From assembly GCA_001051155.2 (NCBI GenBank), contig JYIP02000016.1, positions 63,324 to 127,323 of the forward strand: a DNA stretch of 64,000 bases, read 5' to 3'. A program made the position numbers and the translations under genes. Positions 19,533 to 61,991 of the stretch are shown here, one piece after another. Source of the DNA: Chrysoporthe austroafricana. Taxonomy: Eukaryota > Ascomycota > Sordariomycetes > Diaporthales > Cryphonectriaceae. Under the pieces are notes generated by a model, which had not been told where the DNA came from, made no database searches, and worked only from the letters and a program-made list of their open reading frames with translations. The stretch's first letter is position 1, and the number at the start of each line of letters is the position of its first letter.

Positions 19533-19649
19533 TTTTAACGACTCTTGTTTAAGGACTAGTTCAGTATTATCCACCTTTAGCAATACGGAAATACGATAGC
19601 TTTTCCCATTCCAATACCGTCTTCCTCTCAGCAGATTACGCCCTAGGCT

Positions 19650-25773: not shown

Positions 25774-25953
25774 TTGGATAGCGTATTGAAGAATTGCCTT
25801 AAGAAAGGAATTACGATAACAAGTCGTAAAGGAACGAGACTTTTTGACTCTACCCGATATAACGAATTAGGAAAACGCAATCCGAAATAAGAATATCAAG
25901 CAAGACTACTTACGGAAAATCTTTAGAGACAAAGATTACAAGGAAAGAGATAA

Positions 25954-26444: not shown

Positions 26445-26449
26445 CTACG

Positions 26450-30300: not shown

Positions 30301-30339
30301 GAACTGAAAAGGAAGCATACTGCAAGCCTAGCATATATT

Positions 30340-30909: not shown

Positions 30910-31115
30910 TAATAGTAAACGTATTGAAATATATTATAAAGCATAGTTTTTCAGAAAGTAAACTACGCTAAAAGTATATTAAGGCATTATATAAGCCCCC
31001 CAGTAAGAGTATAGCATCCACCCAGTAAATTTATTGCGTATTTATTAGGGGATTTACTATAGATTTACCAGGCGAATTTATTATAAATTCACTTCGTTTA
31101 TAGATTTTGCTATTA
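30910..31115 (-). repeat. 3' LTR of element Z (206 bp)
   Basis: In plus orientation it runs TAATAGTAAACGTATTG to TTTTGCTATTA and aligns with 51965-52170 and, inverted, with both LTRs of Y. Preceded by AGCCG. Confidence 0.9.
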
Positions 31116-35040: not shown

Positions 35041-35045
35041 CTAAT

Positions 35046-35252
35046 TAATAGCAAAACTTATAAACGAAGTGAATTCGTAATAAATTCGCCTAGTAAATCT
35101 ATAGTAAATCTTTTAATAAATACGCAATGAATTTACTAAGTAAATGCTATACCCTTACCGGAAAGCTTATATAATGCCCTAATAGGCTTTAACATAATTC
35201 ACTTTCTTGGAAAAATTATATTTTATAATATATTTCAGTACGTTTATTATCA
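35046..35252 (+). repeat. 5' LTR of element Y (207 bp)
   Basis: Runs TAATAGCAAAAC to CGTTTATTATCA; the initial TG has become TA. It aligns gap-free to 45441-45647. Confidence 0.92.
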
Positions 35253-35284
35253 ATTAGTAGCTACGCTTTGCACGCTTTTGCTAT

Positions 35285-35460
35285 ATAATCGGGTTTCGAT
35301 TATCGGCTTTGTAAAATAACAGCTCCTGTAAGAGTATCGGTCCTATAAAATAACGGCTTCTGTAAAAGTATCGGCTCTATAAAGTATCGGCTCTTATAAG
35401 AATATTAGTCCTGTAAAATATCGGCCTTTATAGAAATAGCGCTCTTATAAGAGATATTAT
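35285..35460 (+). repeat. tandem repeat array in the leader of element Y
   Basis: After the 5' LTR, a unit of about 17-20 bases resembling TATCGGCTCTTATAAGA recurs roughly eight times with variations (ATCGGTCCTATAAAATA, ATCGGCTCTATAAAG). A matching array lies in the Z leader at about 51770-51930, so it is a feature of the family. Confidence 0.7.
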
Positions 35461-35519
35461 AATCATTTATCGACAATTTATTACCAATTCATTATAGCAA
35501 TTACTGGCAATAACGTTTT

Positions 35520-38500
35520 ACTATTACGGCTTATCGATTATATCGAGATCAAGCATCCCGCTTAAGTATACAAGTTTATATAAGCCTTGAACGACCCTGA
35601 AAGGAAGGATTGAGTTATATCGGATATTAAGATTTTTCTCGAAATCGCGTACGCTTTTGTCGACTGGAAACTTTTAGCCGATCGATACGAAAAAGCGAAG
35701 CAGAATCCCAAGGAAGCCAATGCATTTTTGCAAAAAGCAAAAGCATAAGTAGTTAAGCAAGGATAGCCTTTACTGCCTAAGCGCTGGATTCAAGAAAGAA
35801 AAAAATCGAATTTCGATAAGAATCTATCCCAGTAAATAGGAAAGAATAATACGTTTTAGGAAAATTTTTCCAAATATCGCAAATTTCGATAGCTTACCGA
35901 AATAATAACGGAAAAGGAATAATAATAAATGCTTATAGAAATAAACGAGAGCGAGAATACTTTTCGACTTAATAATCCGGAAAATCCGTTAGAAAAATTA
36001 ACTTAGCAATAATTTATCAAAAATCGAAAGCATTATATACTTGAATATACTAATACTAATAGCGGAATCAAATATATTTATCTATTACGATATTTAACCG
36101 AAAATTCAAATCCCAGATTTACTAATAAATCCGGGAATTTTTCAGCTATAATAAAAAGAATAGACAAAAGCAAAAGAAAATAATAAGTTCTAGGAAATAG
36201 GCATACCTCTTTCCCTTTAACGAAAGCCCAGAATCGGAATGCTTCTAGACAAAGTTCTATTACAGCTACTCTAACCAACTTTATAAACTTTATAGCAAAA
36301 AGCATATTAATGCCCTAATCGGGTTTATCGGACTATTCGTAACTTTTCGGAGAAAAAAATTATAAAGAAAAAAGATTGGATAAAAGAAAATCGGATAATC
36401 TCATTACTATCCTTTAAAAATACCCAACCTCTCTTTCCCTAATTATTAGCCTATTAAACCAGTTTCTATAGCGACTCGAAATGAAAACAATTTACCAAAA
36501 CGGCTTTATTTCGGAAAAGGCAATATGCATTGGGTTCAAGAAAATGTTCCGATTGCAATAAGCTTTCAATATATAAGCGTTTCAATCGGAACTTACTAAA
36601 AAACCTTTTCCCGTTTCGGCCGCGAAATATTATACTAGTAATAGATATCGCTTTACCAAACCGGCATTTCCTAATATTAAGGAACGCATCCGGCAAATAT
36701 TTATATTAAGGGCAGGAAATTAACTAAACCAAAAACTATTTTCGGGTTCCGAACCGGATATTGAAATTAACCCTGATTTCTAAGAAGAACTAATTAATAA
36801 GCCAGATAGACTACCGGATTTATCGGATTCTAGCAATAATAAAAGCAATAGTTTTCGAAATTTATTATTCGGCTATAAACGATCCAAAGATTTCCAAACT
36901 TATCGATCTAATTTACTTGAATTTATAATATTGCCCGTTAGCATTAATAAGGAATTCAAGAATACAGTTATAAAGCAATTCCGATTTTATAAGAATTAGA
37001 ATAATTATACTAATTTAATAATTATATCTATTACAAATAGCAAAATTACTATTTAGAAAGACTTTTAAGCTTTTATAAACTAGTATAAGATATATATAGC
37101 CAAAAATGCAAAATGCATTAAATATCTTAGCTTCCATTTACCCGTTTGCTTAGCTAAAATAGTATATATTTAATTCTATTCTATATTATTTTCTTAAGAA
37201 CGTAAGGACTTTATTTTACGTAAGCATAGTTAGAGCTAATAGAAGAAATAGTTAAAAAGAGATTTCTCTATATTACGGAAAACCGCAAAAGACTTGCTAA
37301 ATACTTAATAATATTCCAGGAAAAACGTACGAAATAATTACAATATTCTGGAATTTACTCATTACGTTTATCGATTTATTAAGCTAGCCGAATACCCAAA
37401 TTCGTATTTAGCTAGAAATATCTGGGATCGGATCGATAAAGAATTAATAATTAGATATTTCGATAGACTTAATCGAAATAAGGATGCGAAAGATTTTAAA
37501 AAATATCTTAAAGCGAAATAAGAAATATAGCATATCCTCGAATTAAATTGCGTAATAAGATTATTTCGTAAACCCGCATAACCGGTACGGAAAGTTATAT
37601 AATCGGCTGCTAATCTTCCTAATATTAATATTTATTTCTTAGCTAATATATTCCCAGAACGCTCTAGAAAATTCAGGCCTTAAGGACCTGAATATTTATC
37701 TTGCTTAATAAAGACGTTTAACTAGCCAAATCCATCCAAAAGCACTAGATATATTCCGGAATACGAATTCCGAAAGCTCTTACTAGAATAATAGCGAAAG
37801 CTAATAGATATTCGGAATTAGTTACAGGAACGGATAGCTAGATAACAAAATATCTCTAGTATAGCCAGGAAGATATTAACCAATATTATAGATAATAGCA
37901 GAAATTCAATTTCAAAAAACCGAAATTTCCAATCGCGCTTTTATTATCGATTCGTACGAAAAGATATTAAAAGATATTTTGTCCAGTTAATTCTAGCAAA
38001 TTTCAATATCGATAACGGAAAATTGCAATATAATCCAGATAAAGAAAATAAGCTGGCTCGAGAAAGCTATTTTCCCGTAAACGACGATCTATTTATAACG
38101 GATAGCAATAAATACGATAAAGAGACCGAAAACGGCAAAAACCTATAGAAGCAAGAGGATAAGTTGGAAGAATAAGCTAATAAGGAGAATATAATAATCG
38201 AAGATAATATTTGGATTTTTCGAGCCGAAAAAGCAAAACTATTAATAAACGAAAGTATATTCTACGTTAAGTACCCTATATAACTATCTAGTTAGCTATA
38301 GAATTTTCCCAAAATTAATATATAGAAAGGAGAAATTTTGGAATATAATATTCCTATACTTATAGTTAAGCTTTATTAAAGCAGCAGCTATACGTATGCA
38401 AGAGCTGCAATTAGAGCATATTCGAATAGGCCGGATATAGAGATCTGTATTAATATAAGCGCTAGTCGTTATGCTATTGCTAAAGAATTGCTAATATAAT

Positions 38501-38900
38501 TCCCTAAAGCGAAAATAGATTAGAATATAAAAGCCAAATTCAGAAACGTAAGCTAATTGCTAGCAAAAAGCTAAACTGAATTCGATTTATATTTCTAGAG
38601 CAATAAGTACGGCTACCCAGTTATATTTCGTATTCGAATAGGAGCTTAAGTATTAGATCGACTAAAAGCAAATATTTTATTAAGATAGGAATACAATATT
38701 CCTTACGAACTGGATATTCTGAATTCAGAATTGTCTATATAATTTGGTTATTTTGGTAATACTATAGCGAAAATAGAAATATTTGCCCGAATGCTAATAC
38801 AATCCCGGCAAGCAAAGGCCGTAACTATTACGGTAATACTGCTTAGATCTTATAGGCTAATCTTTATTAGTATTAAGCGAATCCTAAAAACGTAATTTTT
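35520..38900 (+). pseudogene. element Y gag-protease relic
   Basis: Broken frame with gag-like segments: IFLEIAYAFVDWKLLADRYE, VIKQFRFYKN, HYVYRFIKLAEYPNSYLARN, and a basic segment NFQSRFYYRFVRKDIKRYF before the presumed protease (IPILIVKLY, then RAAIRAYSNRPDIEIC). Stops sit at expected Gln and Trp codons. Gag and protease boundaries are approximate. Confidence 0.6.
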
Positions 38901-39149
38901 CTATTCAGGCCGAAACAGAAAAGGTAAATGAATTGCTTGATAGGTTATTAGATTAAGGAAGTTTTAATAACGAACCAGGCGGCAACCCTTTTGAGAATCC
39001 AGAAAAACCAACTTCTAAGGACAATCGAACCATTCTAGACAAATTATATAACCTTGCTAGCAAATTATAATAACTATTACTATATCGCGCGATAATACCT
39101 CTTTTAATGAATTAAGAACGGGTTATAGTTTTCAGGAAAGCTAAATTCA

Positions 39150-42100
39150 GACTAACTGTTATTTATTAAGCATATTTTCCAATAAACTGCGAAAATTATT
39201 GGAAAATAGCTAGAAAAGTACTAACTTTCAGATATAGAAACCCCCGAAATAAAAGACTATTTCGAAAATAGTAATAAATTAGGGATTCGAAAAAATAAAG
39301 CTATTAAGGAATCGGAAATTAATTTCGGTATATACATTTGCAAGCATTTACCGGAATTTTTCTATAAAGTTATAGAATTAATACAAGCATATACTAAAGT
39401 TTTTAAAAATACAAGTCCCGTTAATATACCAATCGATTAATAAATAAAAGTCGATCTGGTCGAAAGATAACAAAACCAGAAAGTAAGATAAAAGCTATAT
39501 TATTCAAGTAAGGAAAATTAGGAAGTAATTAACGAAATTTTAAATAAGTTATATTAATAAAATCGAGCTGAATAGGTTATAAATGCAATGCTATTCGGTT
39601 TACTAATTTTTATAATTTGAAAGAATATAAATAGCTAAAAAAAAGAATATATAATAATTAATTTACGCGCTTTGAATAAGGTTTCAGTTCCTAATACTTA
39701 TTCCCTGCTATTATAGCAAGAAATTATCAAATGGCTAAGAAGAAAAATATATATTACGGTAATAGATATATAGCAATTTTTCTATTAATTCTTAATATAT
39801 CCAGATTATAAAAACCGATTTACCGTTATCAATTATCGTAATCAAGAAAGGATAAAAGTTTTATTTATAGGATTTCGAAATTCATTATCCTATATTTAGC
39901 GTTTTATAAATCAATTTTTACAATTATATTATAAGTTTATTTCCGCTTTTATAAACGATATCGTTATTTATTCAATTACAAAACAAGATTACTTGCAATA
40001 CTTACAAATTATCTTCTTATTATTTTTACGCAAAAATATTTTACTAGCTAGACCCAAATCGTTTCTTGGATATCTTTCAGTCCAGATTTTAGGATTCAAA
40101 ATGGACGGATTCGGAATTTCCAATACGGAATACCGGATACAAGCTATTCGCAACCTGGAATTTCCCAAAACATTCTAGTAATTAGAAAGGTTTATTGGAT
40201 TTACAGAATACTTACGCTACTTAATTCTTAAATACAGTTATAGAGTTAATCCATTTCAAAAAAAAAAAAACTAGAATACTGAACGAGGCTTGCTAATCGA
40301 ACTATTTACTTTCAAGTATAAGATAGCGAAATTATACTATATAGGCTACTTTCGACTCAATACCAGACGAAATTAATAGTTTTTACGACTTCAAAATAGC
40401 TTTGGAAGCTAAAAATGCTTTATTTTACTATATTCCAGACAAACCTCTTTTTATCTAGCTGAATGCGTTTAAGGAAATGGGGTTCTCAAACGTTATTTTC
40501 CAATTAGCAAACGACTATATATGGAAGGGAGCATTGCTAATAAACGAAAGTACTGGCTTATAGAGCTAGAGGTAGCCTATCTGGTATGGCTAATACGAAA
40601 ATTGCAGACGATAATAGGATCGAACCGAACCAAGCCAGTTTATATCCTTATTAACTACGCAGCAATAGTTAGCATTATCTATTCGTTATCTATAAATATA
40701 GTAAACAAGACTAAAGCAAATATGCGGCTAATTCTCGCTTCAGAATACTTAAGCCAATTCGACTTGAAAGCATATTATATACTAGGAAAGTCGAACGTTC
40801 TTGCAAATGCTATATCAAGATTATTATCTACTCAGAAACCTATCGATAACGAAAGCATTCTAGATAAAATATAAGAAAACGAATTTATCCAAATTCTCAA
40901 TAAAATATCCATAAATAGCGAAATGAAAAGGCGTATTAAGAAAGGATACGAAAAATACCCCTTATAGTTCAAAATAATCGAATAATTGAAAGATTCAAAT
41001 AAAATTGCCCGACTACTTTTTATATTAAATTATAATAGCTTACTATTTCTTAAAGATTATTACGGGAAATAACGATTATATATCCCGAATGAAATAGCAT
41101 TGGATTTTATTAAGGAAGCCTATAATGGAAAATATTATTTCGGTATAAACTGCGTATAGCATAATTTAACGGATCGATTCGTTATCAAATACTGCTATGC
41201 CAAAATACGCAATTATATATCGATATATCGAGCTTGCAATAAGAATAAAAACGACTTATAATAACCTTTAAAGGAAATATAGCCCATATTATTTCTATTA
41301 ATCCCATTCCATACTATTATTATAGACTTTATTATAAGATTACCGATAATATTATTTACAAATATTATATAAGCTTTAGCTAAAATGCTATTCTTAAATG
41401 CATTTCTTATAATTACGGATAAGTATTCCAAAGCTATAATTATTATACTAAGCAATGCAATATATATTGCAGCAAACTAAGCAATTCTTATTTTACGAAT
41501 ATTTTATATTACTAGCTAGGGAATATTCAAAAAGATTATTTTAGACAGAAATTCGAAATTCCTATCGGAATTCTGGAAATATTTATAAGAGGCTATTGGA
41601 ACGAAATTTGCCTATTCTACTGTTTCGTATCCGCAAACGGACAAGCAATTTGAAATAAAAAACCGAGTAATTGAAATAGCAATTCGGCATTTCATAACCG
41701 CCTACTCTAATGCAAAATAAACCGAAATAATACCGGCATTACAATTCAACCTAAATAACGCATATAACCGAGCTACAAAATATTTAGCTAGCCAAATGCT
41801 ATTCGGATTCAATTTATTATCGGGCTAGTAAATAAAGAATATAATACCTCTAGCAAGAGAAGTTTTTCAGGAAAAAGCTTAACTTTTTATTGCCGAAATG
41901 CAAATAATAGCCAAATTGCAATATAATAAGCATTACTGCCAAATAGTTTTCGAACTAGATAATTAAGTATATATTCGCTTAAGCTACGAGTACTTATTGC
42001 TAAGTAACTTATCTCTGAAATTTTCATAATAAAGGATAAGACTTTTCTAAATTATTCGAAAGATAAGGAACCTAATATATAAGTTAAAATTAATTCCCTA

Positions 42101-42566
42101 TATAAATATCCATTCAATAATTTCGGTAATATAATTAATGCTTGCAAACTTTCCTAAAACGGACTTTTATAGATATAACTTTATATACCAGGACTTAATA
42201 AATATGCCAGAAAATCCGAATATCGAAAAATACTTGGAAGACTATCGATATTACAAGCTAGAAAGGATAATTAGCTACCGTAAGCGAAAATATAAACGTA
42301 ATCCGTACAGAATTGAATACTTAGTAAAATAGATAAACTACTCTAGCTATTATAATATATAGATGCCCTATAATGCCCTGAATACGGACGAAATAATACG
42401 TAATTTCGAACGGAAATGCGAAGCTATAGCCGAATTGCAAGAAAGAGCAAAGCGAAAGCGGCTATTAGCGGAAGAAATCTTTGAACCGGAAAATATTATC
42501 GTAACTGCCTTACGAAAACGAGGCAAGCCAAAACGCAACTTACAAACAAAAGGTATACTGGAATAA
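39150..42566 (+). pseudogene. element Y pol relic: RT, RNase H, integrase, chromodomain-like tail
   Basis: RT active site FINDIVIYS at 39948-39974 (FVDD-type, first Asp changed to Asn). RNase H at about 40330-40860 includes SEYLSQFDLKAYYILGKSNV and NVLANAISRL, and 40521-40874 is fully open. The integrase reads IRNYISIYRACNKNK, then IIDFIIRLPIIL, ITDKYSKAI and YPQTDKQFEI. The tail reads YYKLERIISYRKRKYKRNPY, then IEYLVK and MPYNALNTDEIIRNFERK (open at 42363-42566), resembling a chromodomain-type end followed by a charged helix. Confidence 0.82.
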
Positions 42567-42599
42567 GCTAGTTTATTTGCTTTAAGAAATCGAAAGAAC

Positions 42600-45440
42600 T
42601 CGCAATGCAATAGGCGCGCATTGGAATAAAAGCAACCGTTAAATAGAGCAAATGAATTTCTAGCAAATGCAAAAAGCTATTATTTTGTAAACTGCTAGTA
42701 AATTCATTTTATTTTCCTTTTCCTATTAGCATGCCTATAATTATTATCCCTATTTATTTATTATAGCCAGCCATATCGCCTTATTATTATTACCTTTTAT
42801 TATATTTTTGAATATTATTTTTGGGTATTAAGCTAATATTATTATTAAATTTGCTTTACCTTGCCAAGCTTCTGTAAATTTGCAAGGACTGTATTAATAA
42901 AGCTATTAATATTACTAAAACTAAAACGCATTACGTAATTATTAAATCGTATCTTTCCGTAAATGCCTTGCTATAAAACCAAAACTAATAAGAAACAGTA
43001 TATTTAGCTATACTTAATTTCTATACGGTACCGTACTTTATATCCTAAGAAAAACTTTTTAAAGTTTGCCGAAAAAACAGGATTATATAATATGCCAAAT
43101 ATATCTATAAGGCATCGCTTAAAGACCGCCTTTCCCTAGAAAGATATCGGTAGGCTATATATTTGTATAATAGCGAAAGCTGTTTCTACTGTAATACTTA
43201 TATAACGAAAAACTATTTAAGCGATTTCTTTTGCTGCTAAGAAGCTTATACAATAGCCTTTTGTCGGGCGCTAATTAGTAAAGGTTATACCGATATAATA
43301 AACCAAGAAATCGAATATAATATTTATATTCCCAATACCGAGCTAAGCAATAGCGATATTAGTTAGCTGCTAATTATTAAGAAAGCCCAAAAACTTATTT
43401 TACAATACTTTATACTATCGTAAATTGACCGTTCCAGCCCTATTTACGAAAAATAGGAATTTTATCCAAATACCTTTACTAGCGCGGATATTATTACGAG
43501 CAAGGATACAGATAACGGACTAACGGATAATTCTATTAAAGGAATATTGCTTAAATTTACCCCGAATTCACCTACCGTTCGTAATCCTATCCCTGCCCTA
43601 TATATTTTATTAATAGCTCATTATATCCTATTTCCTACTATAATATCGAGAGATAATTGCTTACGAAATGGGCATAGCCGTTATATCAAGAATAAGGCTA
43701 AATAGATAATATTAAGCAATCGCAGCAACCTTACTAAAAAGGAAGTAAATATTGTACGCTACGCAGCCAATATAGCAGAAATCGTTATAATTTACGAATA
43801 TAGTTATAATATAGCCCTTGCTACTTGGAAGAAAATAGCCAAAAATATCAAGCCAGTCTTAGCCAAGCTTAAAGCTCCCGAACCTATTATGCCAGTCGCT
43901 AATCTAAGCTTATTTGCTATAATAAAGCAAAACTTTACAATGCTAGCCAAATGCTATCGAATTATAGATAATACTATCGACTTAACCGAAAATAACTTAC
44001 CGAATATAGCTAATCTGTTAGCTATATTAAGCAAAGCTCCCCGAGCCAGTATTAATAGCATTTTGCCCTTACGGGCTACGCCTTGCGCTATCCTTGCTTT
44101 ATCTATCAAATATAACCCCAAATCCAAAGCTATTAAAGCCGAAATCGCAATATATTACCGTACGCTAGCCCTTTATACATCCAAGGAATATATACGCTAT
44201 AATTTCATTTAAAGAAGCAATTTCAGTACTAACCGTCCTTATATTACTAATAGCTTCGCCATTCATAATAATATTAAATTCGGCATTATCGGAATTTACG
44301 ATAATTGCATCCAATACTTCTTTTCTTTTACTATAAGAGAATATATATACAAATTTATTACTTGGTTCCGCAACCTTAATCCTATTATCTTATCCAACCG
44401 GTCGGGCTTATATTTTATTATAAACCAAATCTTCCGTTTCGAATACGATTTCAAGGCTATTAAGATTGTCTTTACTAAAGACGATATAGATTACGACTTT
44501 AATACTACTTTTCAGAAATAAGCTAACGAAAACAAAAACTATTTTAATACTGCCCAGTCCTTGCAATGCCAAAATCGCATAATAGGCCTTAAGTCCTATA
44601 TTCAAGCGCATAGGCTAATCAAAACCTTACAGCTTGATATCTATAATTATACCAACCTTTATAACCATATCGGAAAGGAAGAATTATTTACTACATTCCC
44701 TCGCAATTTACTAAATCTTAAAACTACTGCTAAAGCTTAGGAAGTTATTCCTAACTAGTAAATATAGCTATTATTTATCGATATAATATTATTAGCAGCA
44801 TATAATATTGCTTTCTTCCAATAATTTATAGATTTAGCTACTTATATTAAGAACTGGTTACGATATCGCTATATAACGACTATATACAGCTATCGGCTTT
44901 GCGTACCGATATATCCTATCGTAACTTTACTTTATATTCATTACTATTACATTTACTTAATACCCTATTATCTAAAGGCTATACTTTCTACTAATATCTA
45001 TAAGCAATTTTGGTTTTTAATTATATCTATATTAAATATTTCGGCAGTAAATACGACTAAGCATTACCGAAATATACTTGGATATCGGCTAGCCTTATTA
45101 TATATAAATACTATATATATCTATTTATCTTAAGCATAAATCGATTATAGTAAAGGATTAATTCTAAATTCCCGGTATAAGCAGGTTTTCTTTTAATTCC
45201 CGGCATGGGCATATTTGTTATTCAAGTTTCCGGTATAAGCATATTTACTTATTAGGATTCTGGCACGAATCGGCTTTATGAAACGATTGTTATTTCCTAT
45301 ATAATCTCTTTTGTCCAATAGTACTGTTATGCTTTTCCTTGCCGTATAACCCAGAGTCCTATCATATCGTATTATTGCTACTCAAAACGTTTTTGACAGT
45401 TAGCTTCTTTTATAGACAAAGGTTATAAAGGGCTAGCAAT
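42600..45440 (+). other. extra 3' segment of element Y, between pol and LTR
   Basis: About 2.8 kb that belongs to neither gag nor pol and is also present in Z (31116-33985, inverted). On the sense strand, readable stretches include SIRHRLKTAF, GRLYICIIAKAVSTVILI and the open run 43889-44212. On the opposite strand, 44408-44611 and its Z counterpart 31906-32166 are open and similar (LKAYYAILALQG; LKAYYTTLALQG). I cannot tell which strand coded. The family evidently carries an additional gene or a long non-coding 3' region. Confidence 0.5.
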
Positions 45441-45647
45441 TAATAGCAAAACCCATAGACGAAATGAATTCGTAATAGATTTGCCTAATAAATCTATAGT
45501 AAATCCCTTAATAAATACGCAGTAAATTCACTAAGTAAATGCTATACCTTTACCGGGAGGCCTATATAATGCCTTGATAGGCTTTAGCGTAGTTCACTTT
45601 CTTGGAAAAACTATGCTTTATAATATATTTCAGTACGTTTACTATTA
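45441..45647 (+). repeat. 3' LTR of element Y (207 bp)
   Basis: Runs TAATAGCAAAACCC to CGTTTACTATTA, followed by CTAAT. Its terminal CA has become TA. Confidence 0.92.
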
Positions 45648-45652
45648 CTAAT

Positions 45653-48600
45653 AATATAAAATATCCGTAAGATAAGGGTTATTTAATCTGCTACAATATA
45701 TATTATATTGCTTAATATAATAATCGTAATTTTGAAATATTTATCTGTAATTATAAGAAATGTATTTAAGAATAGCATTTTAGCCAGAACTTATATAATA
45801 TTTATAAATAGTATTATCGGTAATCCTATAATAAAGTTTATAATAATAATATAAAATAGGATTAATAAAGATAATATAAGCTATATTTCTTTTAAGGGTT
45901 ATTATAAATCGTTTTTATTTTCGTTATAGGCTCGATATATCGATATATAATTGCATATTTTGGCATAGCAATATCTGATAACGAATTAATTTATCAAGTT
46001 ATATTATATATAGTTTATGCCGAAATAATATTTTCTATTATAAGCTTCTTTAATAAAATCCAATATTATTTCATTCGGGATATATAATCATTATTTCCTA
46101 TAATAATCCTTGAAAAATAATAAGCTATTATAATTTAATATAAAAAATAATCGGATAACTTTATTTGAGTTTTTCAGTTATTCAATTATTCTAAACTATA
46201 AGGGGTATTTTTCGTATTCTTTCTTAATATGCCTTTTCATTTCGCTATTTATAAATATTTTACTAAAAATCTAGATAAATTCGTTTTCTTATATCTTATC
46301 TAAAATGCTTTCATTATCGATAAGTTTTTGGGTAAACGATAATTTTAATATAGCATTTGCGAAAACGTTCGACTTTCTTAATATATAATATGTTTTTAGG
46401 TCGAATTAGCTTAAGTATTCCGAAACGAGAATTAGCCGCATATTTGCTTTAATTTTATTTATTATATTTATAGATAACGAATAAATAATGCTAATTATTA
46501 TTGTATAATCGGTAAGAATATAAATTAGTTTAATTCGGTTTAATCCTATTATTATTTGCAGCTTTTATATTAGCTATATTAAATAGGTTATTTCAAGCTT
46601 TATAAGCTAGTATTTTCGTTCTGCCTTATTAATTATCTTATTTAAATAAAGGATTGGTTATACGGCTATACTTACTATTAGCAATATTCCGTTCTATATA
46701 TAATCGTTTGCTAATTGGAAAATAATACTTAAAAACCCTATTTCTTTAAATATATCTAACTGGATAAAAAGAGATTTGTTTAAGATATAATAAAATAAAG
46801 CATTTTTAGTTTTTAAAGCTATTTTAAGGTTATGAAAACTATTAATTTTATCTGGTATTAAATCGAAAATAGCTTGCATAATATAGTTTCGCTATCCTAT
46901 ACTTGAAAGTAAACGGTTCGATTGGCAAGCTTTGCTTAATATTTTAATTTTCTTTCTCTAAAATAGGTTAATTTTATAACTATATTTAGGAATTAAATAG
47001 CATAAGTATTCTATAAATCCAATAAACCTTTCCAGTTGCTAGAATATTTTGGAGAATTTTAAATTGCGAATAGCTTATATCCGGTATTCTATATTGGAAA
47101 TTCCGAATTTATTTACTTTAAATCCTAAGATCTGGATTAAAGGATATTTAAAAAACGATTTAAATCCAGCTAATAAAATATTTTTGTATAAAAATAGCGA
47201 GAAGATAATTTATAAATATTGCAAGTAATTTTATTTTATAATTGAATGAATAACGATATCGTTTATAAAAGCAGAAGCAAATTTGTAATATAATCGTAAG
47301 AATTAATTTATAAAATGCTAGATATAGGATAATAAATTTCGAAATCCTATAAGTAGAATTTTTATCTTTTTTTAATTATAATAACTGATAATAATAAATC
47401 GGTTTTTATAATCTGGATATATTAGGAATTAATAGAAAAATTGCCATATATTTATTACTATAATATATATTTTTCTTTTTAGCTATTTGATAATTTCTTG
47501 CTATAATAGTAAAAGGTAGGCATTAAGGACTGAAACCTTATTTAAAGCGCGTAAATCGATTATTATATATCTTTTCTTCTGGCCATTTATATTTTTCCAA
47601 ACTATAAAAATTAGTAAACCGAATAGCATTATATTTATAATTTATTCAGCTCAATTTTGCTAGTATAACTTATTCAAAATTTCGTTAATTACTTTCTAGT
47701 TTTCTTTATTTAAATAATATAGCTTTTATCTTACTTTCTAATTCTGCTATCTTTCGATTAAATTAATTTTTATTTATTAATCGATTAATATATTAATAGG
47801 ATTTATATTTTTGAAAATTTTAATATATGCTTGTATTAATTTTATAATTTTATAGAGAAATTCCAATAAATGCTTGCAAACGTATATACTGAAATTAATT
47901 TCTGATTCTTTAATAGCTTTATCTTTCCAGATCCTTAATTTATTATTATTTTCGAAATAATCTTTTATCTTAAGGGTTTTTATATCCGGGAATTAATACT
48001 TTTCTAGCTATTTTCCAATAATTTCCGCAATTTATTAGAAAATATGCTTAATAAATAATAGTTAATCTGAATTCAGCTTTCCTGAAAATTATAACCTATC
48101 TTGAATTTATTAAAAGAAGTATTATTGCGCGATATAGTAATAGTTATTATAATTTGCTAGCAAGGTTATATAATTTGTCTGGAATAGTTCGATTATTTTT
48201 AGAAATTAGTTTTTCTAGATCTTTAAAGGGGTTGCTGCCTAGTTCGTTATTAAGACCTTTTTAATTTAATAACTTATTGAGCAATTTATTTACTTTTTTT
48301 ATTTCGGTTTAAATAGAAAGGTTACGTTTTTGGGATTCGCTTAATACTAATAAAGATTAGCTTATAAGATTTAAATAATATTACCGTAATAGTTATAGCC
48401 TTTGCTTGCCGGGATTATATTATTATTCGGGCAAATATTTCTATTTTTACTATAATACTATTAAAATAACCAAATTATATAAACGATTTTAAATTCAGAA
48501 TATCCAGTTCGTAAAGAATATTATATTCCTATCCTAATAAAATACTTATTTCCAATTAATCCAATATTTAAGTTCTTATTCGGGTACGAAATATAATTGA

Positions 48601-51600
48601 GTAGCCGTATTTATTATTCTAGAAATATAAATCGAATTCAGCTTAGCCTTTTGCTAGCAACTAGCTTACGCTTCTAAGCTTGGCTTTTATATTCTAGTTT
48701 ACTTTCGTTTTAAGGAACTGTATTAGCAATTCCTTAGCAATAGTATAATAACTGGCGCTTATATCGATATAGACCTCTATATCCGGCTTATTCGAGTATA
48801 TTCTGATTATAGCTCTTATATACGTATAGCTGCTGCTATATTAAAGCTTAATTATAAGTATAGGAATATTATATTCCAAAATTTCTCTTTTCTATACATT
48901 AATTTTAGGAAAATTCTATAGCTAATTGGATAGTTATATAGGGTATTTGATATAAAATATACTTTCGTTTACTAATAGTTTTATCTTTTCGGCTCAAAAA
49001 ATCCAAATATCGTTTTCGATTATTATATTTTTCTTATTAACCTATTTTTCCAATTCGTCCTCTTGCCTTTATAAGTTTTCGTTATTTTCGGTCTCTTTAT
49101 TTTATTTATTGCTATTCGCTATAAATAGATTATCATTTATAAGGAAATAACCTTTTCGAGCTAGCTTATTTTCTTTATCTAAATTATATTGCAATTTTCT
49201 GTTATCGATATTGAAATTTGCTAAGATTAACTGGATAAAACGTTTTCTAATATCTTTTTGTATAAATCGATAATGAAAATACGGTTAGAAATTTCGGTTT
49301 TTTGAAATTAAACTTTTGCTATTATTTATAGTATTAATTAATATTTTCCTAACCGTACTAGAGATATTTTATTATTTAGCTATTCGCTTCCGTAATTAGT
49401 TCCGAGCGTTTATTAGCTTTCGCTATTATTCTAGTAAGAGCTTTCGGAATTCGTATTCCGGGATATATCTAGTACTTTTGGATAGATTTGGCTAGTTAAA
49501 TATCCTTATCAAGCGGGATAAATATTCAGGTCCTTAAAGCCTGAATCTTTTAAGGCATTCTAAGAATATATTGGCTAGGAAATAAATATTGATATTAGGA
49601 AGATTGGCAGCCGATTGCGTAATTTTCCGTATTAATTATACGGGTTTACGAGATAGTTTTATTATACGGTCTAATTCGAGAATATGCTATATTTCTTATT
49701 TTGTTTTGAGATATTTTTTAAAATCTTTTATATCCTTATTTCGATTAAATCTATCGAAATATTTAGCTATTAATTCTTTATCGATCCGATCTTAAATATT
49801 CCTAATTAAGTACGAATTTGAGTATTCGGCTAGTTTAATAAATCGATAAATATAATAAATAAATTCCAGAATATTACGGTTATTTCGTATATCTCTTTTG
49901 GAATATTATTGGGCATTTAATAAATCTTTTGCAGTTTTCTGTAATATAAAGAAATCTTTTCTTAATTATTTCTTTTATTAGCTTTAATTATATTTATATA
50001 AAGTAAAATCCTTACGCTTTTAAGAAAATAATATAAAATAGAATCAAATATATACTATTTTAGCTAAGCAAACGAATAAATGAAAACTGAAATATTTAAT
50101 ATATTCTATATTTCTGGCTATATATATCTTATACCGGTCTATAAAAGCTTAAAAGTTTTTCCAAATAATAATTTTGCTATTTATAATAAATACGATTATT
50201 AAATTAATATAATTATTCCAGTTTTCGTAAAGTCGGAATTGCTTTATAATCGTATTTTTGAATTCCTTATTAATGCTAACGGGTAATGCTATAAATTTAA
50301 ATAAATTAAGTCGATATATTCGGGGATTTTTAAATTACTTATAGCTAAATAATAGGTTTCAAGAATTATTGCTTTTACTATTGCTAGAATCCGATAGATT
50401 CGGTAATCTATCTGGCTTATTAATTAGTTTTTTTTAGAAATTAAGGTTAATTTTAATATTTAGTTCGGGACCCGAAAATAATCTTTGGTTTAGTTAATTT
50501 CCTGCTCTTAATATAAATATTTGCCGGATATATTCTTTAATATCAGAAAATGCTAATCTAATAAAGCAATATCTATTATTAGCGTAATATTTCGCAGCCG
50601 AAACGGAAAAAGGTTTTTTAATAAGTTTCGATTAAAGCGCTTATATATTGAAAGCTTGTTATAATCGGAGCATTTTCTTAAACCTAATGCGTATTGCCCT
50701 TTCCGAAATAAAGCTATTTTAGTAAATTGTTTTTATTTCGGATTGCTATAGAAATTGATCTAATAAGCTAGTAATTGGGAAAGAAAGAGTCGGGTATTTC
50801 TGAAAGATAGTAATGCAATTATCCGATTTTCCTTTATCTAATTTTTCTTCCTTATAATCTTCTTTTTTAAAGAATTGCAAATAATTTAATAAATCCGATT
50901 AAGGCATTAATATGCTTTTTATTATAAAATTTATAAGGTTAGCCGGGATAGCTATAATAGAATTTTGTTTGGAAATATTCCGATTTTGGGTTTCTATTAA
51001 AAAGAAAGAAATATGCTTATTTCCTGAAATTAATTATTTTCTTTTACTTTTATTTATTTTTCTTATTATAATTAAAAAATTCCTAGATTTATTAATAAAT
51101 CTAAAATTTGAATTTTCGGTTAAATATTATAATAAATAAATATACTTAATTCCGTTATTAATATTAATATATTCAAATATATAATGCTTTCGATTTTCGA
51201 TAAATTATTATTAAGCCAATTCTTCTAACGAATTTTCCGGATTATTAAATCGAAAAGTATTTTCGCTTTTATTTATTTCTATAAGCATTTATTATCGTTC
51301 TTTTTCCGTTATTGCCTTAACAAGCTATCGAAATTTGTAATATTTGGAAAAATTTTCCCAGAATATATTATTTTTTCCTATTTACTAGAATAGATTCTTA
51401 TCGAAATTCAACTTTCTTCCCTCTTAAGTCTACTGCTTAAGCAATAAAGGCTATCCTTATTTAATTATTTATGCTTTTGCTTTTTGCAAAAGTATATTAG
51501 CTTTCCTAAAATTCTGTTTCGCTTTTTCGTATTAATCGGCCAAAAATTTCCAATCGATAAAAGCATACGCGATTTCGAAAAAGATTTTAATATCTAATAT

Positions 51601-51700
51601 AATCCAATCCTTCTTTTCAGAATCGTTTAAAGCCTATATAAACTTATATACCTGGGCGGGATGCTTGATCTCGATATAATCGATAGGCCGCAATAGTAAA
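45653..51700 (-). pseudogene. element Z gag-pol relic, first part
   Basis: The minus strand repeats, in the same order, the gag, protease, RT and RNase H of Y (35.5-41.5 kb) with more stops. For example, the RNase H lead-in near 46694-46879 reads LIPDKINSFHNLKIALKTKN, the counterpart of 40330-40520 in Y. It ends in the integrase region at the CTAAT target site, where Y inserted. Confidence 0.75.
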
Positions 51701-51769
51701 ATATTATTGCCAGTAATTGCTATAATAAATTAGTAATAAATTATTAATAAATAATTGTAATATCTTTTA

Positions 51770-51930
51770 TAGGAATGCTATTTTTACAGAAACCGATATC
51801 TTATAAGACCGATACTCTTATAGAAACCGATACTTTATAAAGCCGATATTTTTACAGAAACCGTTATTTTATAAGACTGATATTCTTATAAGAGCTATTG
51901 CTTTATAAAGCCGATAATCGAAACCCGATT
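51770..51930 (-). repeat. tandem repeat array in the leader of element Z
   Basis: Degenerate units (in plus orientation GAAACCGATACTTTATAA and similar) recur about eight times next to the 5' LTR of Z, the counterpart of 35285-35460 in Y. Confidence 0.7.
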
Positions 51931-51964
51931 ACGCAATAAAGGCATATAAAGCGTAGCTATTAAT

Positions 51965-52170
51965 TGATAGTGAACGTACTGAAATATATTATAAAGCATA
52001 GTTTTTCAGAAAGTAAATTACGCTAAAAGTATATCAGGGCATTATATAGGCCTCCCGGTAAGGGTATAGCATCTACCCAGTGAATTCATTGCGTATTTAC
52101 TAAGGGATTCACTATAGATTTACTAAGCGAATCCATTATAAATTCACCTCGTCTATAGGTTTTGCTATCA
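51965..52170 (-). repeat. 5' LTR of element Z (206 bp)
   Basis: In plus orientation it runs TGATAGTGAACGTACTG to TTTTGCTATCA, the best preserved terminal TG...CA of the family in this window, followed by AGCCG. Confidence 0.9.
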
Positions 52171-53556
52171 AGCCGGTTCTTTTCTTTTCTTGGATTTTTT
52201 AAGGGTATGCGGAAAAAGAATAATTCTGCTAGCTTTAATACCCGTTATTATTATATCGAGCTCGTTCTTGGCTTTATAAAGTTCTTTTACAAATAGTATA
52301 AGATATTTAAGGACTAAAATATATTAATAACCCTAAGCGTAATAAATATATTTCGAGCTATTTAATCTTTTCTGCTTATAGCACGTTCTGTCAGAATTCG
52401 AACTTGTTAAGCTTTTAATATAGCCAATATAAAGCGGACTTATCAAGTTTCCAAAGCTATTCGATATAACTATAGTAATTTGCAAGCGTATAATTTTGGA
52501 TAGTATCGATTGAATATTAAATACTGCTTTCCTTTTCGTAAGCGTTTTGGCAATCGAAATAGCTTTATTAAATAATATTTTAATAATCGGAACGATTTTC
52601 TTAAATATCGAAATAAATATTTTAAGAATTATTTTAACTTTCTTAGAAACAGAAAAAGCTTTTTAAGCAGCAATATTAATCTTTTCTTACTTATTTATCG
52701 AAAAAATAAAGCTTAAATTAGCAAAAGCTTGCTATCGGATATATCTATTAAAGCTTAGATTAAGAAAAGTCCGATATTAGATATATTCGTTTACTATTTC
52801 GTATTTATTTTTTAGAATAAAATAAGCATTCCGCAATTCGGTAAGATATTTGCATATTCTAATATTATATTTATCCTATTCTGAAATAAGCTATTTTATA
52901 AATAAAGAAAATTAAATATTTAACGGAATAGGAAAAGGAAAATTAATATTATAATAAAAAGTTTTAAAGAAAAGATCCGAAATATCTTGAAATAGCTAAC
53001 CGAGCTGCTTTTTAACTAATTTATATATTTTTTCTTTTAAAACTAAATTAATATTAGCAGAATTATCTGGATAAAAAGATAATCAAATAAATAATACGAT
53101 AAAAAAAAAGCATTTATTATCAGGCTAATTATTATTCTAGCTATTAAAATTGCTAATTTCAAGCTTTATAAAACGAAAAAAATAGAATTAAATATAATTA
53201 AGATTATTATATGCGCTTATTCGGCCAGAAAAAGCTATAGAAAAGGCATTAGCTAAATTGTTAATAATATCTTGAATGCAAAATTGCTTAAAGCAGCATA
53301 TATTATTTTTATCCATTAGAAATATATTATCTATAATATCAGAAACAAGCGCTATAGGATCCTTATCTAGCTTATCCGATACGCTCGTATTAGGCATATT
53401 ATAGTCAGATTAATTATAATTCTCAGAAACTGAATAATAAAGGGTAATAGGAAGAGAAGGAAAAGGCTTATCGCGCGATATTGCAATAGCAGCAGGAGCA
53501 TTAGATAGGCTATCTGACTTATTAGATACAATAATACAATTATCCTGATTATTCAT
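52171..53556 (-). pseudogene. N-terminal part of the copia antisense gene relic
   Basis: ATG at 53556-53554 (MNNQDNCIIVSNKSDSLSN) starts a frame that can be followed with few TAA/TAG stops to 52171: DPIALVSDIIDNIFLMDKNN, CIQDIINNLANAFSIAFSG, FQDISDLFFKTFYYNINFPF, YLTELRNAYFILKNKYEIVN. It is interrupted by element Z inside a Lys/Arg-rich segment and resumes at 30909. The two parts would make a protein of about 650 residues transcribed against the retrotransposon. Its function is unknown; it is neither gag nor pol. Confidence 0.55.
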
Positions 53557-53700
53557 TTTTGACTAAAGCAGCTACTAAACGGCTATTCTGTAATGGATTG
53601 TTATTATTATTTAGTAAAAGAAAGTCCTGAGAAAGAATAAGGGCATTTACTGGAAAGATATCAGGAAAGTGCCCTACTTTTTCTTTAGGCACTTGACCAA

Positions 53701-53714
53701 TCAGGTAGGGGGTA
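53701..53714 (+). promoter_or_regulatory. polypurine tract of the copia element
   Basis: GGTAGGGGGTA directly precedes the right LTR, the position from which plus-strand DNA synthesis is primed. It is a G-rich run in an otherwise AT-rich region. Confidence 0.65.
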
Positions 53715-53885
53715 TATAGAAAAGTGGAACAACTAGTACCCTAACCCTGGCATTTCTGTACTCTATATATTTCTGGCTAAGCATTATACAGTCATTTTCA
53801 TTCTCTTTTGTAGAAGACAGATTTCTATCTCAATATACTTATTTATTCTTTCCTATGCTCAATATTAAGTGCCTGTTTCGCCACA
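53715..53885 (+). repeat. right LTR of the copia element (171 bp)
   Basis: It runs from TATAGAAAAGTGG (TG of the left copy changed to TA) to TTTCGCCACA and is followed by the GTATC target duplication. It preserves the terminal CA lost in the left copy. Confidence 0.92.
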
Positions 53886-53914
53886 GTATCCTCAGATGGC
53901 AGTGCAACAGCCAT
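53886..53914 (-). pseudogene. start codon and first eight codons of the split GNAT gene
   Basis: On the minus strand ATG at 53914-53912 opens M-A-V-A-L-P-S-E up to 53891. The GTATC duplication (53886-53890) gives D and the first two bases of a Thr codon, and in the ancestral sequence this continues into 17172 and below (V-Q-L-L-P-I-N). Joining 53891 directly to 17177 restores one frame with no base lost or gained, which is strong evidence that this is the displaced 5' end of the gene at 16551-17177. The original promoter lies right of 53914. Confidence 0.85.
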
Positions 53915-54376
53915 ATCGAATCTTAAGACATGTGTGGTATATAGCTTAAAAATTAAAGTAATTTAATATTGAAAAAAAATTCTTTACATTTCCATTGCTT
54001 GGCCTAGATACGAAGGCATTCCTTTGTTATGTGTAGATTAAGCACTGATATCCAGCAGACTGACAAGTTAGCATGTAAAATGGCATAACAACTATTCACG
54101 CTATTGGGGTATATCATATGAATCAATGATGTTAGCGGAAAGCCTTAGCAGACTAGTCTGAATCACGCGGCGACTGTTGTCTGAGTTTTGGAATTTGTAC
54201 CTATACATTTAATAGAAACTTGTTACCCGTGAGCTCGAGTTACCACAGCTGTCGGCCCATTATCTCCGTGAAAAATGCTTGACAGCCAAAATAGTATAGA
54301 TTTCGAACCCATTTCCCACCCTTCTTGCTGCCAGCTAAACCCAGCTACAAAGCCCATATTTATATTATGATATTCA

Positions 54377-54483
54377 TATAGGTTAAACTGCCGGTCAGGA
54401 TGCTGCCGAGAGGTGCCCCGATACCCTTGGTGAAGCACAGCTGGATGCTGTCAAAGCACTCACCAATCTCGCGGAGAGTGAAC
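54377..54483 (-). pseudogene. fragment of a threonine aldolase gene (107 bp)
   Basis: Aligned without gaps to 61211-61317 in the threonine aldolase gene, with 6 mismatches in 107 bases by eye. It covers the PLP-lysine region, read on the minus strand as FTLREIGECFDSIQLCFTKG. The similarity stops abruptly on both sides. It is a leftover of a diverged second copy. Confidence 0.88.
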
Positions 54484-54608
54484 GCTACAGCCACAGCACT
54501 CCCCCCCTCTTCGTGTAGCCAGTTTCAGCCCGGAGCGAGTCGTACCACCTGCTATAGCCCCTAACCCCTCTCCCTTTTTTTATTTTTATGTTTATTTTTT
54601 CTCCCATT

Positions 54609-57037: not shown

Positions 57038-57574
57038 CATATTAACGCGATGTCTCAGGAGGTGAGACGCCTGCGAGAGGCTCTAGCGGGAGCGAACAAA
57101 CGCACCGACGACGAGCGCCAACGCGCCGACAAGGCAGAGGAGCAGAGGCGGCCGACTACACCGAGCGAATACATCCCACCCTCCCACGAGCTCGTCTTTC
57201 CAAGACTGAGCGTGGAGAGCGACCCGGTCCTTACATCCCGGGTTCCAACCACCAATCCTCGCATCAACGCGATGTCTCAGGAGGAGGTGAGACGCCTGCG
57301 AGAGGCTCTAGCGGAAGCGAACAAACGCGCCGATGAAGAGCGCCAACGCGCCGATGAACAGCGCCAACGCGCCGATGAAGAGCGCCAACGCGCCGATGAA
57401 GAGCGCCAACGCGCCGATGAAGAGCACCAACGCGCCGACAAGGCAGAGGAGCAGAGGCGGCTGACTACACTGAGCGAATACATCGCAGCCTGCCACGAGC
57501 TCGTCTTTTCGAGACTGAGCGTGGAAAGCGACCCGGTTCTTACATCCCGGGGTTCAATTACCAACCCTCGCAAC
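57038..57574 (+). repeat. tandem duplication and 21-base repeats at the 5' end of the Spok-like gene
   Basis: The block from AACGCGATGTCTCAGGAGG (about 57044) to the VESDPVLTSR codons recurs from about 57266. Unit 1 spans residues 1-74 and unit 2 residues 75-175. Unit 2 contains about four additional 21-base repeats encoding RADEERQ-like heptads (about 57330-57430). The frame is kept throughout, so the duplication lengthens the coiled coil. Confidence 0.85.
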
Positions 57575-59584
57575 AAACTCTGCCCAGCACATCTGAGGCC
57601 GTGGTCCAACTTCCACGAGCAGCAGAAAGGTGTCCTTTGCCAAATCCTTGACAAATTTCCTGCCGAACGCCGTGCTTTCGAGAGCCTGGATGGCCTGATT
57701 GCGCACGCTAACCTGGTCTCTACGCCAGTAGCGGACGAGAAATCACTCGAACTTTTCCAGCATATCAGCATCGAGTTCCCAGTTCAGCGCATCGTGAATC
57801 AGCTCGGAGAGGTGGACGCCACTAGGACCCAATTCGGCCTTGGAACAGATATCACTTTTGTGAATCATCCTCACGCTCTCAGCGATGGGTCCACAGAAGT
57901 TGCCGATCGACAGCCCCGTCACACATCACAGCTCCGACCCGACCAAATATGTGTCTATCGGTCAGACGATAGCGACGGCAACAAAACACAAACTATGGTC
58001 TACATTATCGAATACAAGGCCCCACACAAATTAACAGCTCCACATCTCCGCGCCGGTCTGCATCCTATGGATATCTACAATGACGTTGTTAACCGACAGA
58101 CGATTCCCGATACTGAGGAATCGGCAGCACATTTCCAGTATACTGCGGAAAAGCTGACGGCTGCCGCTATCAGCCAGACGTATCATTACATGATTTATGG
58201 CGGGATCGAATACGGTCTTCTGACGACGGGCGAAGCGATCGTCTTCCTTAAGGTCGACTGGAAAGAGCCCGGAGTCCTTTACTACCACCTGGCAGAACCT
58301 GGCCCCGAGGTCGCGGCGCACCCGGCCGAAGCCTTGTATTGGACAGCCGTCGCTCAGTCTCTGGCATTCAGCCTGATAACCCTCGGTCCGGAACGACAAA
58401 CATATGGGCAGAAGAGGCGGAAAGATGCCATGAAGCTCCTGAATACATGGGCCGAGGACTTCAATGCTGTGTACCATTCGATTCCTCGAGACGCACGGTC
58501 ACCCCCGGTTGACTCGCCTGCGTATAAACCCACGACGTATTCCGCCGTGAACCGATCGCCCTATCCACTCCGTCCACGTCGACATCATCCTGTTGATCAA
58601 GACGAACCCGAGAAGATACCGCCAAGGAGAAGTCCACCGGATTCGTCTGATGACGAGTCAGATCCTCCTCTTCACTGCACGCCCACCCCGGCTGAACGTG
58701 GAGGGCCCTCCGACCCCCGGCGCTGCCGCGTAGTCGAACGGCAGCGTGAGCCTGGCCAACAGGAACGACAGCATGGATCTGGCCAAAAGTACTGCACGCA
58801 GCGGTGCCTCCTGGGTCTGGTCGAAGGAGGCTTGCTCGATACAAGATGTCCGAATATAGCGTTCCATGCCGGACAGCGTCGTGCTGCCAATGCTAGTGAT
58901 CGCCATCCCGTTGATCATAAGGAATGGCTCCGACTTCTCCGGGAGCAGCTAAAGAAATCACTCGATGACGGGATAACCCCGCTGGGGGTAGGAGGTGCGC
59001 GCAGTGTCCTCTTCAAGATGACCCTGCTTGCGTATGGGTACACCTTCGTCTGCAAGGGTACCGTGTCGGCGTTTATCCCGGACCTTGAGCACGAAGCTGC
59101 CGTATACGAGCGCCTCCGGCGAATCCAAGGCATTTACGTACCTGTCTTCCTCGGGGCTATCGATCTTCGATCGGTAGACCAGACTTACTACTATGACTTT
59201 CAAGTCAATATAGTGCACATGACGTTTCTGTCATGGGGCGGCCAACCCTTGGATAGGGTAGAATTTGCCGGCAAGGCAAAGGAACTTGAAGATGATGCTG
59301 CTCGGTCATTGCAGGCGATTCACCGAGAGGGAGTGGTGCACAAGGATATGCGAAGCGCAAATATGCTGTTCGACGCAACGACCAAACAGCTGATGATTAT
59401 TGACTTCGAACGGTCTATACTACTAGAACCTCGAGCTCCGTTGGGACGATTGGAGCCAAACAAGCAAGCCCGGAACCAGAATGGGGAGAAGGTGGATCGT
59501 TCATACAGGCGAGATCGAGGCTTTGATGATGATATCGCGATGGCAAGGGTACCGTTCTTGAAGAGGCCTCTTCATAGGACCTGA
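57050..59584 (+). CDS. Spok-like protein: coiled coil, PD-(D/E)xK nuclease-like domain, Cys/His cluster, kinase-like domain (844 aa)
   Basis: Single exon of 844 codons. Domain order: residues 1-140, charged coiled coil with heptads (RADEERQ) and an internal duplication; about 180-480, a nuclease-like domain with PD at 297-298 (LRPDQICVYR) and ExK at 321-323 (IIEYKAPHK), then QTYHYMIYGGIEYGLLTTGE; 480-580, a disordered Pro/Arg-rich linker; 582-606, a C-x3-C-x13-C-x5-H cluster; 640-800, a kinase-like fold with TFVCKG (Lys669), HKDMRSAN (Asp766, Asn771) and IDFE (Asp785). This is the architecture of Podospora Spok proteins, single-gene meiotic drivers in which the nuclease part is linked to killing and the kinase part to resistance. 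All listed motif residues are present, so the gene looks intact. The start could instead be Met75 (57272), since residues 1-74 duplicate that region. Drive activity is inference; non-driving relatives exist. Confidence 0.8.
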   Translation: MSQEVRRLREALAGANKRTDDERQRADKAEEQRRPTTPSEYIPPSHELVFPRLSVESDPVLTSRVPTTNPRINAMSQEEVRRLREALAEANKRADEERQRADEQRQRADEERQRADEERQRADEEHQRADKAEEQRRLTTLSEYIAACHELVFSRLSVESDPVLTSRGSITNPRNKLCPAHLRPWSNFHEQQKGVLCQILDKFPAERRAFESLDGLIAHANLVSTPVADEKSLELFQHISIEFPVQRIVNQLGEVDATRTQFGLGTDITFVNHPHALSDGSTEVADRQPRHTSQLRPDQICVYRSDDSDGNKTQTMVYIIEYKAPHKLTAPHLRAGLHPMDIYNDVVNRQTIPDTEESAAHFQYTAEKLTAAAISQTYHYMIYGGIEYGLLTTGEAIVFLKVDWKEPGVLYYHLAEPGPEVAAHPAEALYWTAVAQSLAFSLITLGPERQTYGQKRRKDAMKLLNTWAEDFNAVYHSIPRDARSPPVDSPAYKPTTYSAVNRSPYPLRPRRHHPVDQDEPEKIPPRRSPPDSSDDESDPPLHCTPTPAERGGPSDPRRCRVVERQREPGQQERQHGSGQKYCTQRCLLGLVEGGLLDTRCPNIAFHAGQRRAANASDRHPVDHKEWLRLLREQLKKSLDDGITPLGVGGARSVLFKMTLLAYGYTFVCKGTVSAFIPDLEHEAAVYERLRRIQGIYVPVFLGAIDLRSVDQTYYYDFQVNIVHMTFLSWGGQPLDRVEFAGKAKELEDDAARSLQAIHREGVVHKDMRSANMLFDATTKQLMIIDFERSILLEPRAPLGRLEPNKQARNQNGEKVDRSYRRDRGFDDDIAMARVPFLKRPLHRT

Positions 59585-60836: not shown

Positions 60837-61991
60837 TCAGTGCGGTATTTCTCGGAAAAAGTCGCAAAGTCTCGCCAATGCACTTTCGGAGATTTGGTAG
60901 TGGAAAACCAGACGCCCAAGCTGGAGATCTCTGAACTTAAGGTCGAATTTGAGAGCAGCCGGGTAGAACTCCTCATACCTCACGCCAGATGCGTCGAGAT
61001 CAAGCCAGACGATGTTGGTCTCTGTCGGCATTGCAAGCTTCCCGCCAAGCTGCTCCTAGAGATTAGAAGCGCGCTTGGCCTTCTCTTGAGCAGACCTCAG
61101 CTCTCCAGCAAAGAACACATCGTCGACGGCTTGTCTAGCAGCTGCGGCAATTATGCCGGTGGCGCGCATGCCGCCTCCGAGAAGCTTGCGGCACCATTTG
61201 GCACGCTTGATATAGGTTGCACTCCCGGTCACGATGCTGCCGAGAGGTGCCCCGACACCCTTGGTGAAGCACAGCTGGATGCTGTCGAAGCACTCACCAA
61301 TCTCGCGGAGAGTGAACACCCCAGCAGCAACTGCTTCCCAGAGGCGAGCCCCGTCCAGGTGCATATGAATTGGTGGTTCCTGCGCGCGCGCCCACCGAGA
61401 GATAGCGCGAACATCGGAAAGGGGCATGATAGAGCCGTTGAGAGTGTTTTCTAAGCTGATGACCCTGGTAGGAACCTCATATATCGATTCTCTCAACGTA
61501 CACTCCCTCTTCACGTCATCTAAGGTTAGATGGTGGCCGTTGGACGGAACAGCCTGTCTAACCAAGACACCTGAGAGATAGGCCGCGCCGCCACACTCGA
61601 AAGTATGAAAGTGGCCTCGAGAGTCGGCAAGGATTGAGTACGGCGGGGTGCGGAGAGCAGCTTGATGGGCGACCATGTTGCCCATGGTACCTGAGGCCAC
61701 AAGGAGAGAGGTGTCGTGGCCCACGAGGCCGGCGATGTACTCTTGTAATGAGAGGGTGGCCGAGTCCTCGTCCGTGTCGCCATCGCCAAGGCTCGTAGCG
61801 ATGATGGCTTCCAGCATAGAAAATGTAGGCTTCGTGTAGGAGTCTGACCGGAAGTCATTGGCCGACTCGTTGCAGTGCGACCATGCCAGACCAGAAGCAG
61901 AAGCTGCCTTCTGCAGAGCATCAATAGTCTTGGGTTTAAGGCTGTCGGAGTGGTCGCGACCAGCGGGCTGTTGGGCCCCTTTCGCGTCAAT
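60837..61991 (-). pseudogene. low-specificity L-threonine aldolase, one in-frame TAG and no ATG for the N-terminus
   Basis: A PLP enzyme cleaving L-threonine or related 3-hydroxy amino acids to glycine and an aldehyde. In order: FRSDSYTKPT, SGTMGN, FECGGAAYLSG, HMHLDGARLWEA (Asp and Arg near PLP), CFTKGVGAPLGS (PLP lysine), GGGMRATG, and the C-terminal TETNIVWLDLDASG. The frame from 61991 to 60837 is 385 codons, normal length. TAG at 61056-61058 interrupts KRASNL/EQLGGKLAMPTETN, where Trp is expected. The first in-frame ATG (61817) would drop 58 residues including the conserved FRSD motif; the codon at 61991-61989, in good context, is ATT. No ATG occurs in the roughly 150 bases upstream. So both start and stop are compromised, although the rest reads cleanly. 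Convergent with the Spok-like gene. Confidence 0.85.

Follow-up and report, generated by a model that had tools for sequence, protein, structure and literature searches.

We analysed a stretch of 64,000 nucleotides from the ascomycete Chrysoporthe austroafricana (assembly GCA_001051155.2), referred to here as the window, which corresponds to positions 63324-127323 of the 307,517-bp contig C8 (JYIP02000016.1). The window carries a gene of the SPOK family, the family of the spore killers of Podospora anserina, and this gene lies beside an AT-rich island of long terminal repeat (LTR) retrotransposon sequence (Table 1). The SPOK-family gene has a GC content of 56% and an index of repeat-induced point mutation (RIP) of -0.53, and thus shows no RIP-like signature.

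Table 1. Features of the SPOK-family gene and its surroundings (window positions; residue numbers refer to the 844-residue product).
Feature	Position	Strand	Basis or remark
SPOK-family gene	57050..59584	+	unbroken 844-codon frame plus stop
Degenerate first copy of the N-terminal coiled coil and domain-1 start, residues 1-74	57050..57271	+	DNA repeats
Probable ancestral start codon, M75 (770-aa product)	57272..57274	+	inference
21-bp tandem repeat coding for heptad coiled coil, unit RADEERQ	57324..57438	+	5.5 copies
PD-(D/E)XK nuclease domain, about residues 209-450	57674..58399	+	predicted killing half
PD...ExK motif, P297/D298 to E321/K323	57938..58018	+	homologue alignment
QxxxY motif, Q376-Y380	58175..58189	+	homologue alignment; SPOK3 landmark
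Cysteine cluster C582-x3-C586-x13-C600-x5-H606	58793..58867	+	homologue alignment
Kinase-like domain, about residues 620-844, K669/HxD D766/N771/D785	58907..59581	+	predicted resistance half
AT-rich, RIP-like LTR-retrotransposon island adjoining the SPOK gene	17182..53887	.	AT content, RIP indices, reverse-transcriptase frame, repeats
119-bp relic of aldolase-like gene	54373..54491	+	92% copy of part of the 61056-61817 frame
Beta-eliminating lyase (threonine-aldolase-like) frame adjoining the SPOK gene	61056..61817	-	the relic at 54373-54491 copies part of it

The first-pass annotation, made from the letters of the window, had read this locus as an intact SPOK homologue: one 844-codon frame with a coiled coil, a PD...ExK nuclease signature, a C-x3-C-x13-C-x5-H cluster and a kinase-like domain, in the order known from SPOK proteins. 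Each of these elements was recovered. The frame runs through without interruption, and its translation places all of the named residues (D298, E321, K323, the C582 cluster, K669, D766, N771 and D785) at the expected positions. The tandem repeat underlies a coiled-coil helix that spans residues 77-136 in the structure model, and the other modelled folds are those of a restriction-enzyme-like nuclease and of a protein kinase. With E<=0.001 as the limit, a protein search returned 408 homologues. The top one, a Fusarium piperis protein (E=1.1e-280), aligns to 89% of the query with 59% identity. We scored residue conservation by aligning the window protein to the best 120 of these 408 homologues, most of the 120 covering 80-92% of the query. 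D298, E321 and K323 are each kept in 119 of the 120 (the remaining one has a gap), and P297 in 116; Q376 and Y380 of the QxxxY motif are kept in all 120. C586, C600 and H606 are likewise kept in 120 and C582 in 119, while a looser CCCH pattern is present in all 121 aligned proteins. In the kinase-like domain, K669, D766 and D785 are kept in 120 and N771 in 119.

This architecture matches the one described for Podospora SPOK1-SPOK4, which share with the window gene a single intron-free frame, a coiled coil with variable repeats, the PD-(D/E)XK and QxxxY motifs, the cysteine cluster and a kinase-like end. The landmarks published for SPOK3 are the PD-(D/E)XK motif at 219-240, QxxxY at 294-298, cysteines 493/497/511 and the catalytic D667 (PMC6660238). 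The spacing of the cysteines is identical in the two proteins (4 and 14), the distance from the nuclease lysine to the glutamine is 53 residues (K323-Q376) compared to 54 in SPOK3, and that from C600 to D766 is 166 compared to 156. The H-x7-H extension of the SPOK3 cysteine cluster is not shared by the window protein; since it was met in only 6 of the 121 aligned proteins, it does not define the family. The same architecture, in several copies per genome, is found in FuSpok1, FuSpok2 and other Fusarium homologues, although FuSpok1 and FuSpok2 themselves were not identified among the matches listed. The predicted nuclease domain also resembles those of the type IIG and type I restriction nucleases BpuSI and HsdR of EcoR124I, from which the window protein differs in being eukaryotic and fused to a kinase-like domain; the Pfam scan of the window protein gave no match to a restriction-enzyme motor or methyltransferase.

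We next consider its relatives. In a FastTree phylogeny of 84 hand-picked rows, the window protein falls in a starred group of five with proteins of Neonectria magnoliae and Fusarium piperis, an unnamed protein and its own paralogue L002, although its exact nearest neighbour is unsure because of long branches. This group is nested in a 69-row clade with proteins of F. oxysporum, F. poae, Beauveria, Metarhizium and Polytolypa, which places the window protein among proteins of taxa that also appear in published SPOK trees. The nearest named relatives by tree are N0V84_012377 of F. piperis (P0001) and QQZ08_012211 of N. magnoliae (P0064). The F. poae and F. oxysporum proteins form a separate branch, and the F. 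poae family protein P0013 is 54% identical to the window protein. A further relative (P0138) bears the source name 'Meiotic driver SPOK2-like protein' and shows 51% identity over the 445 residues searched. SPOK homologues have been reported from many ascomycetes, with a phylogeny described as incongruent with that of the species. Membership in the SPOK family and the completeness of both halves are thus supported by the order of the domains, the catalytic residues, the predicted folds, the position in the tree and a landmark spacing that mostly agrees with that of SPOK3.

The window protein differs from Podospora SPOK1-SPOK4 in a duplicated N-terminus, and its nearest named relatives from F. 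piperis and N. magnoliae likewise have no second N-terminal copy. The duplication is visible in the DNA as tandem copies within 57057-57267 and 57282-57576, which are 95% identical along a stretch of 73 nt and 89% identical along another of 169 nt. In the 169-nt stretch, 17 codons differ between the copies, 13 of them by nonsynonymous changes. We searched 228 proteins (the window protein and 227 others) with a profile of the beginning of domain 1; among the 216 with at least one recognisable start, only the window protein has two copies, the first scoring 39.1 bits and the second 85.5 bits. Residues 35-74 were modelled at a predicted local distance difference test score (pLDDT) below 50. Since the first copy is degenerate and a pair of copies occurs in this protein only, the second copy is probably ancestral, and position 57272, giving a 770-aa product, is the likelier working start. 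An assembly artefact is unlikely because the copies differ enough from each other. We found no account of a comparable duplicated N-terminus in the passages of the SPOK literature that we consulted.

The window gene is one of several in this genome. A protein search against this genome gave at least 22 matches that merge to at least 17 SPOK-like loci. Of the 17, 12 lie on contig C20 in a segment of 1.63 Mb that makes up 3.4% of the genome, a concentration with a binomial P of 1e-14 if loci are uniform and independent, an assumption that local duplication would violate. The cluster, at C20:2.59-4.21 Mb, comprises loci L002-L010 and L028. The same segment holds 5 of the genome's 23 matches to DUF3435 captains, and it is possibly an accessory segment. 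We compared the key sites of eight open frames, the 844-aa window frame and seven others of 738-812 aa (stop to stop); L008 runs into the edge of its locus and its frame is therefore truncated, and L028 is distant, so that its alignment is less sure. The nuclease D/E/K residues are intact in five of the eight (window, L002, L004, L009 and L028) and lost in the other three: L003 has R for K, L006 has S for D, and L008 lacks most of the motif. The kinase D/N/D residues are kept in seven, the exception again being L008 (D785 to N). L003 and L006, which combine nuclease loss with retained kinase residues, are therefore possible antidote-only genes, as judged from these residues.

We hypothesized that the window gene encodes a poison and its antidote in one protein, and this is most likely how it should be read by analogy with characterised relatives. 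The coiled coil would pair protein chains; the PD-(D/E)XK half would damage DNA in nuclei or spores that received the protein; the cysteine cluster and kinase-like half would block this damage in cells still making the protein; and descendants losing the gene would be harmed. The assignment of killing to the nuclease, of resistance to the kinase and cysteine cluster, and of DNA as the target is borrowed from literature on those relatives. The SPOK3 mutant K240A is reported to lose killing and keep resistance, while D667A and cysteine mutants lose resistance (PMC6660238), and SPOK1 toxicity is reported to target DNA (PMC9972908). Under this reading the window copy would be expressed and active, and it may act in spore formation, in vegetative growth or in both. 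Overall, we put at roughly 0.6 the probability that the product is a full-length SPOK-family single-gene toxin-antidote. The gene is structurally complete, and its killing and resistance activities are predicted from sequence, plausible but unproven.

Several observations weigh against this interpretation. Membership was assigned through the published SPOK3 landmarks and relatives, with SPOK1-4 likened by description and not by direct alignment, and no protein named as Podospora occurs among the matches listed (the best 120 each of 408, 502 and 467 matches). The span from PD to K is 26 residues in the window protein (P297-K323) compared to 21 in SPOK3 (219-240), and Foldseek alone found no significant match for the nuclease model. 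A search for the mating-type (MAT) alpha-box gave no match, with controls that were equally mute. Alignment A1, of the window protein and 84 others, has 186 near-invariant positions, defined as at least 97% identical among the other 84. The window protein retains 175 of them, which is the third lowest of the 85 and allows for partial loss of function. The 11 changed positions include G267D, R718Q and two gaps, with no characterised catalytic residue among them. The window protein is thus, on its sequence, complete yet more diverged than most relatives. Furthermore, yeast assays of Fusarium homologues reported kinase-site mutants that were toxic in two of six cases and without effect in four, although one of these four homologues had earlier killed in P. 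anserina (PMC12693581). A SPOK copy may therefore look intact and yet not be an active killer.

An alternative is that the window gene is a SPOK by descent but a decaying or one-sided copy, in which killing, resistance or both were lost through changes outside the catalytic residues. The low retention of near-invariant positions, the degenerate extra N-terminus, the four silent Fusarium homologues and the nuclease losses in three of the eight full-length frames of the same genome would all fit such a copy. The uninterrupted frame, the retention of all characterised catalytic residues and the lack of a RIP-like signature in the gene argue against it, and we regard decay as a real but distinctly less likely explanation.

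The first-pass annotation had placed the SPOK gene beside a mobile-element island and a gene relic, and both descriptions stood up to analysis. The island at 17.2-53.9 kb is AT-rich and contains a reverse-transcriptase frame. At each of its ends lies a copy of a 169-bp direct repeat (17182-17350 and 53719-53887). Counting these two, the repeat family has at least 41 matches in the genome, a figure based on scoring 40 of 82 candidates. RIP indices in five stretches of the island are 0.07 to 0.23, compared to -0.53 in the SPOK gene, a setting similar to that of Spok2, which is reported to be flanked by RIP-inactivated transposons (PMC4022471). Some pairs of the 169-bp repeat elsewhere lie approximately 8 kb apart, an LTR-like spacing, while the window's copies are 36.5 kb apart, which suggests nested insertions. 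The relic derives from the neighbouring aldolase-like gene, and relic and parent flank the SPOK gene on opposite sides in the same orientation. Sequences 73-91% identical to a stretch of about 100 bp at 59766-59864 occur on several further contigs. To the left of the island lies a long uninterrupted cytochrome P450 frame (13113-14600, minus strand), and contig C8 begins with 10 kb (L023) of only 23.5% GC. Of C8, the analysis covered this 10-kb start, the window, and flanks of 10 kb to the left and 20 kb to the right of the window. A Starship setting, as known for Spok genes in Podospora, would include a DUF3435 captain. None of the 23 captain matches in the genome (21 over the cut-off) lies on C8, which is only 307,517 bp long, and decayed captains may be missed, since 16 of the 23 matches contain in-frame stops.

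An active SPOK gene might mainly secure the vegetative maintenance of an accessory segment and not distort spore transmission. This explanation overlaps with a poison-antidote gene, so that the probabilities given to the two do not add to one. Of 24 Fusarium genomes tested, 16 are reported to show an enrichment of FuSpok genes in accessory regions, and a model of mitotic maintenance of accessory chromosomes has been proposed for them (PMC12693581). The location of the window gene on a small contig is consistent with this model; however, contig C8 could equally be an unplaced piece of a core chromosome, and we consider a mainly vegetative role somewhat doubtful, slightly more so than decay.

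A further reading, which we consider improbable, combines isoforms from the two N-termini with antidote-only paralogues into an arms race of killer and suppressor within one strain. Here a possible pair of 844- and 770-aa isoforms could separate or re-tune killing and resistance, and the nuclease-loss paralogues L003 and L006 could act as antidote-only suppressors. Lastly, automatically assigned UniRef names of listed homologues, for example 'EKC/KEOPS complex subunit BUD32', and weak general kinase matches under curated cut-offs in the Pfam scan (Pkinase 1.4e-6, RIO1 3.8e-4) would make the protein an ordinary cellular kinase, a reading already contradicted by the conserved nuclease half, which shares the 844-aa chain with the cysteine cluster, and at odds with the multiple, clustered SPOK-like copies in the genome, so that we give it almost no weight.

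The window gene is a further member of an already known family, and its duplicated front end is unusual. With it, a family of patchy distribution among ascomycetes, and one that can bias inheritance, gains another branch. How one SPOK protein serves as both poison and antidote is a question posed in published SPOK work, and a complete, diverged SPOK with a second N-terminal copy is a natural variant for asking which part sets specificity. The paralogues with natural losses at the nuclease site in the same genome add further variants for questions of specificity and isoforms.
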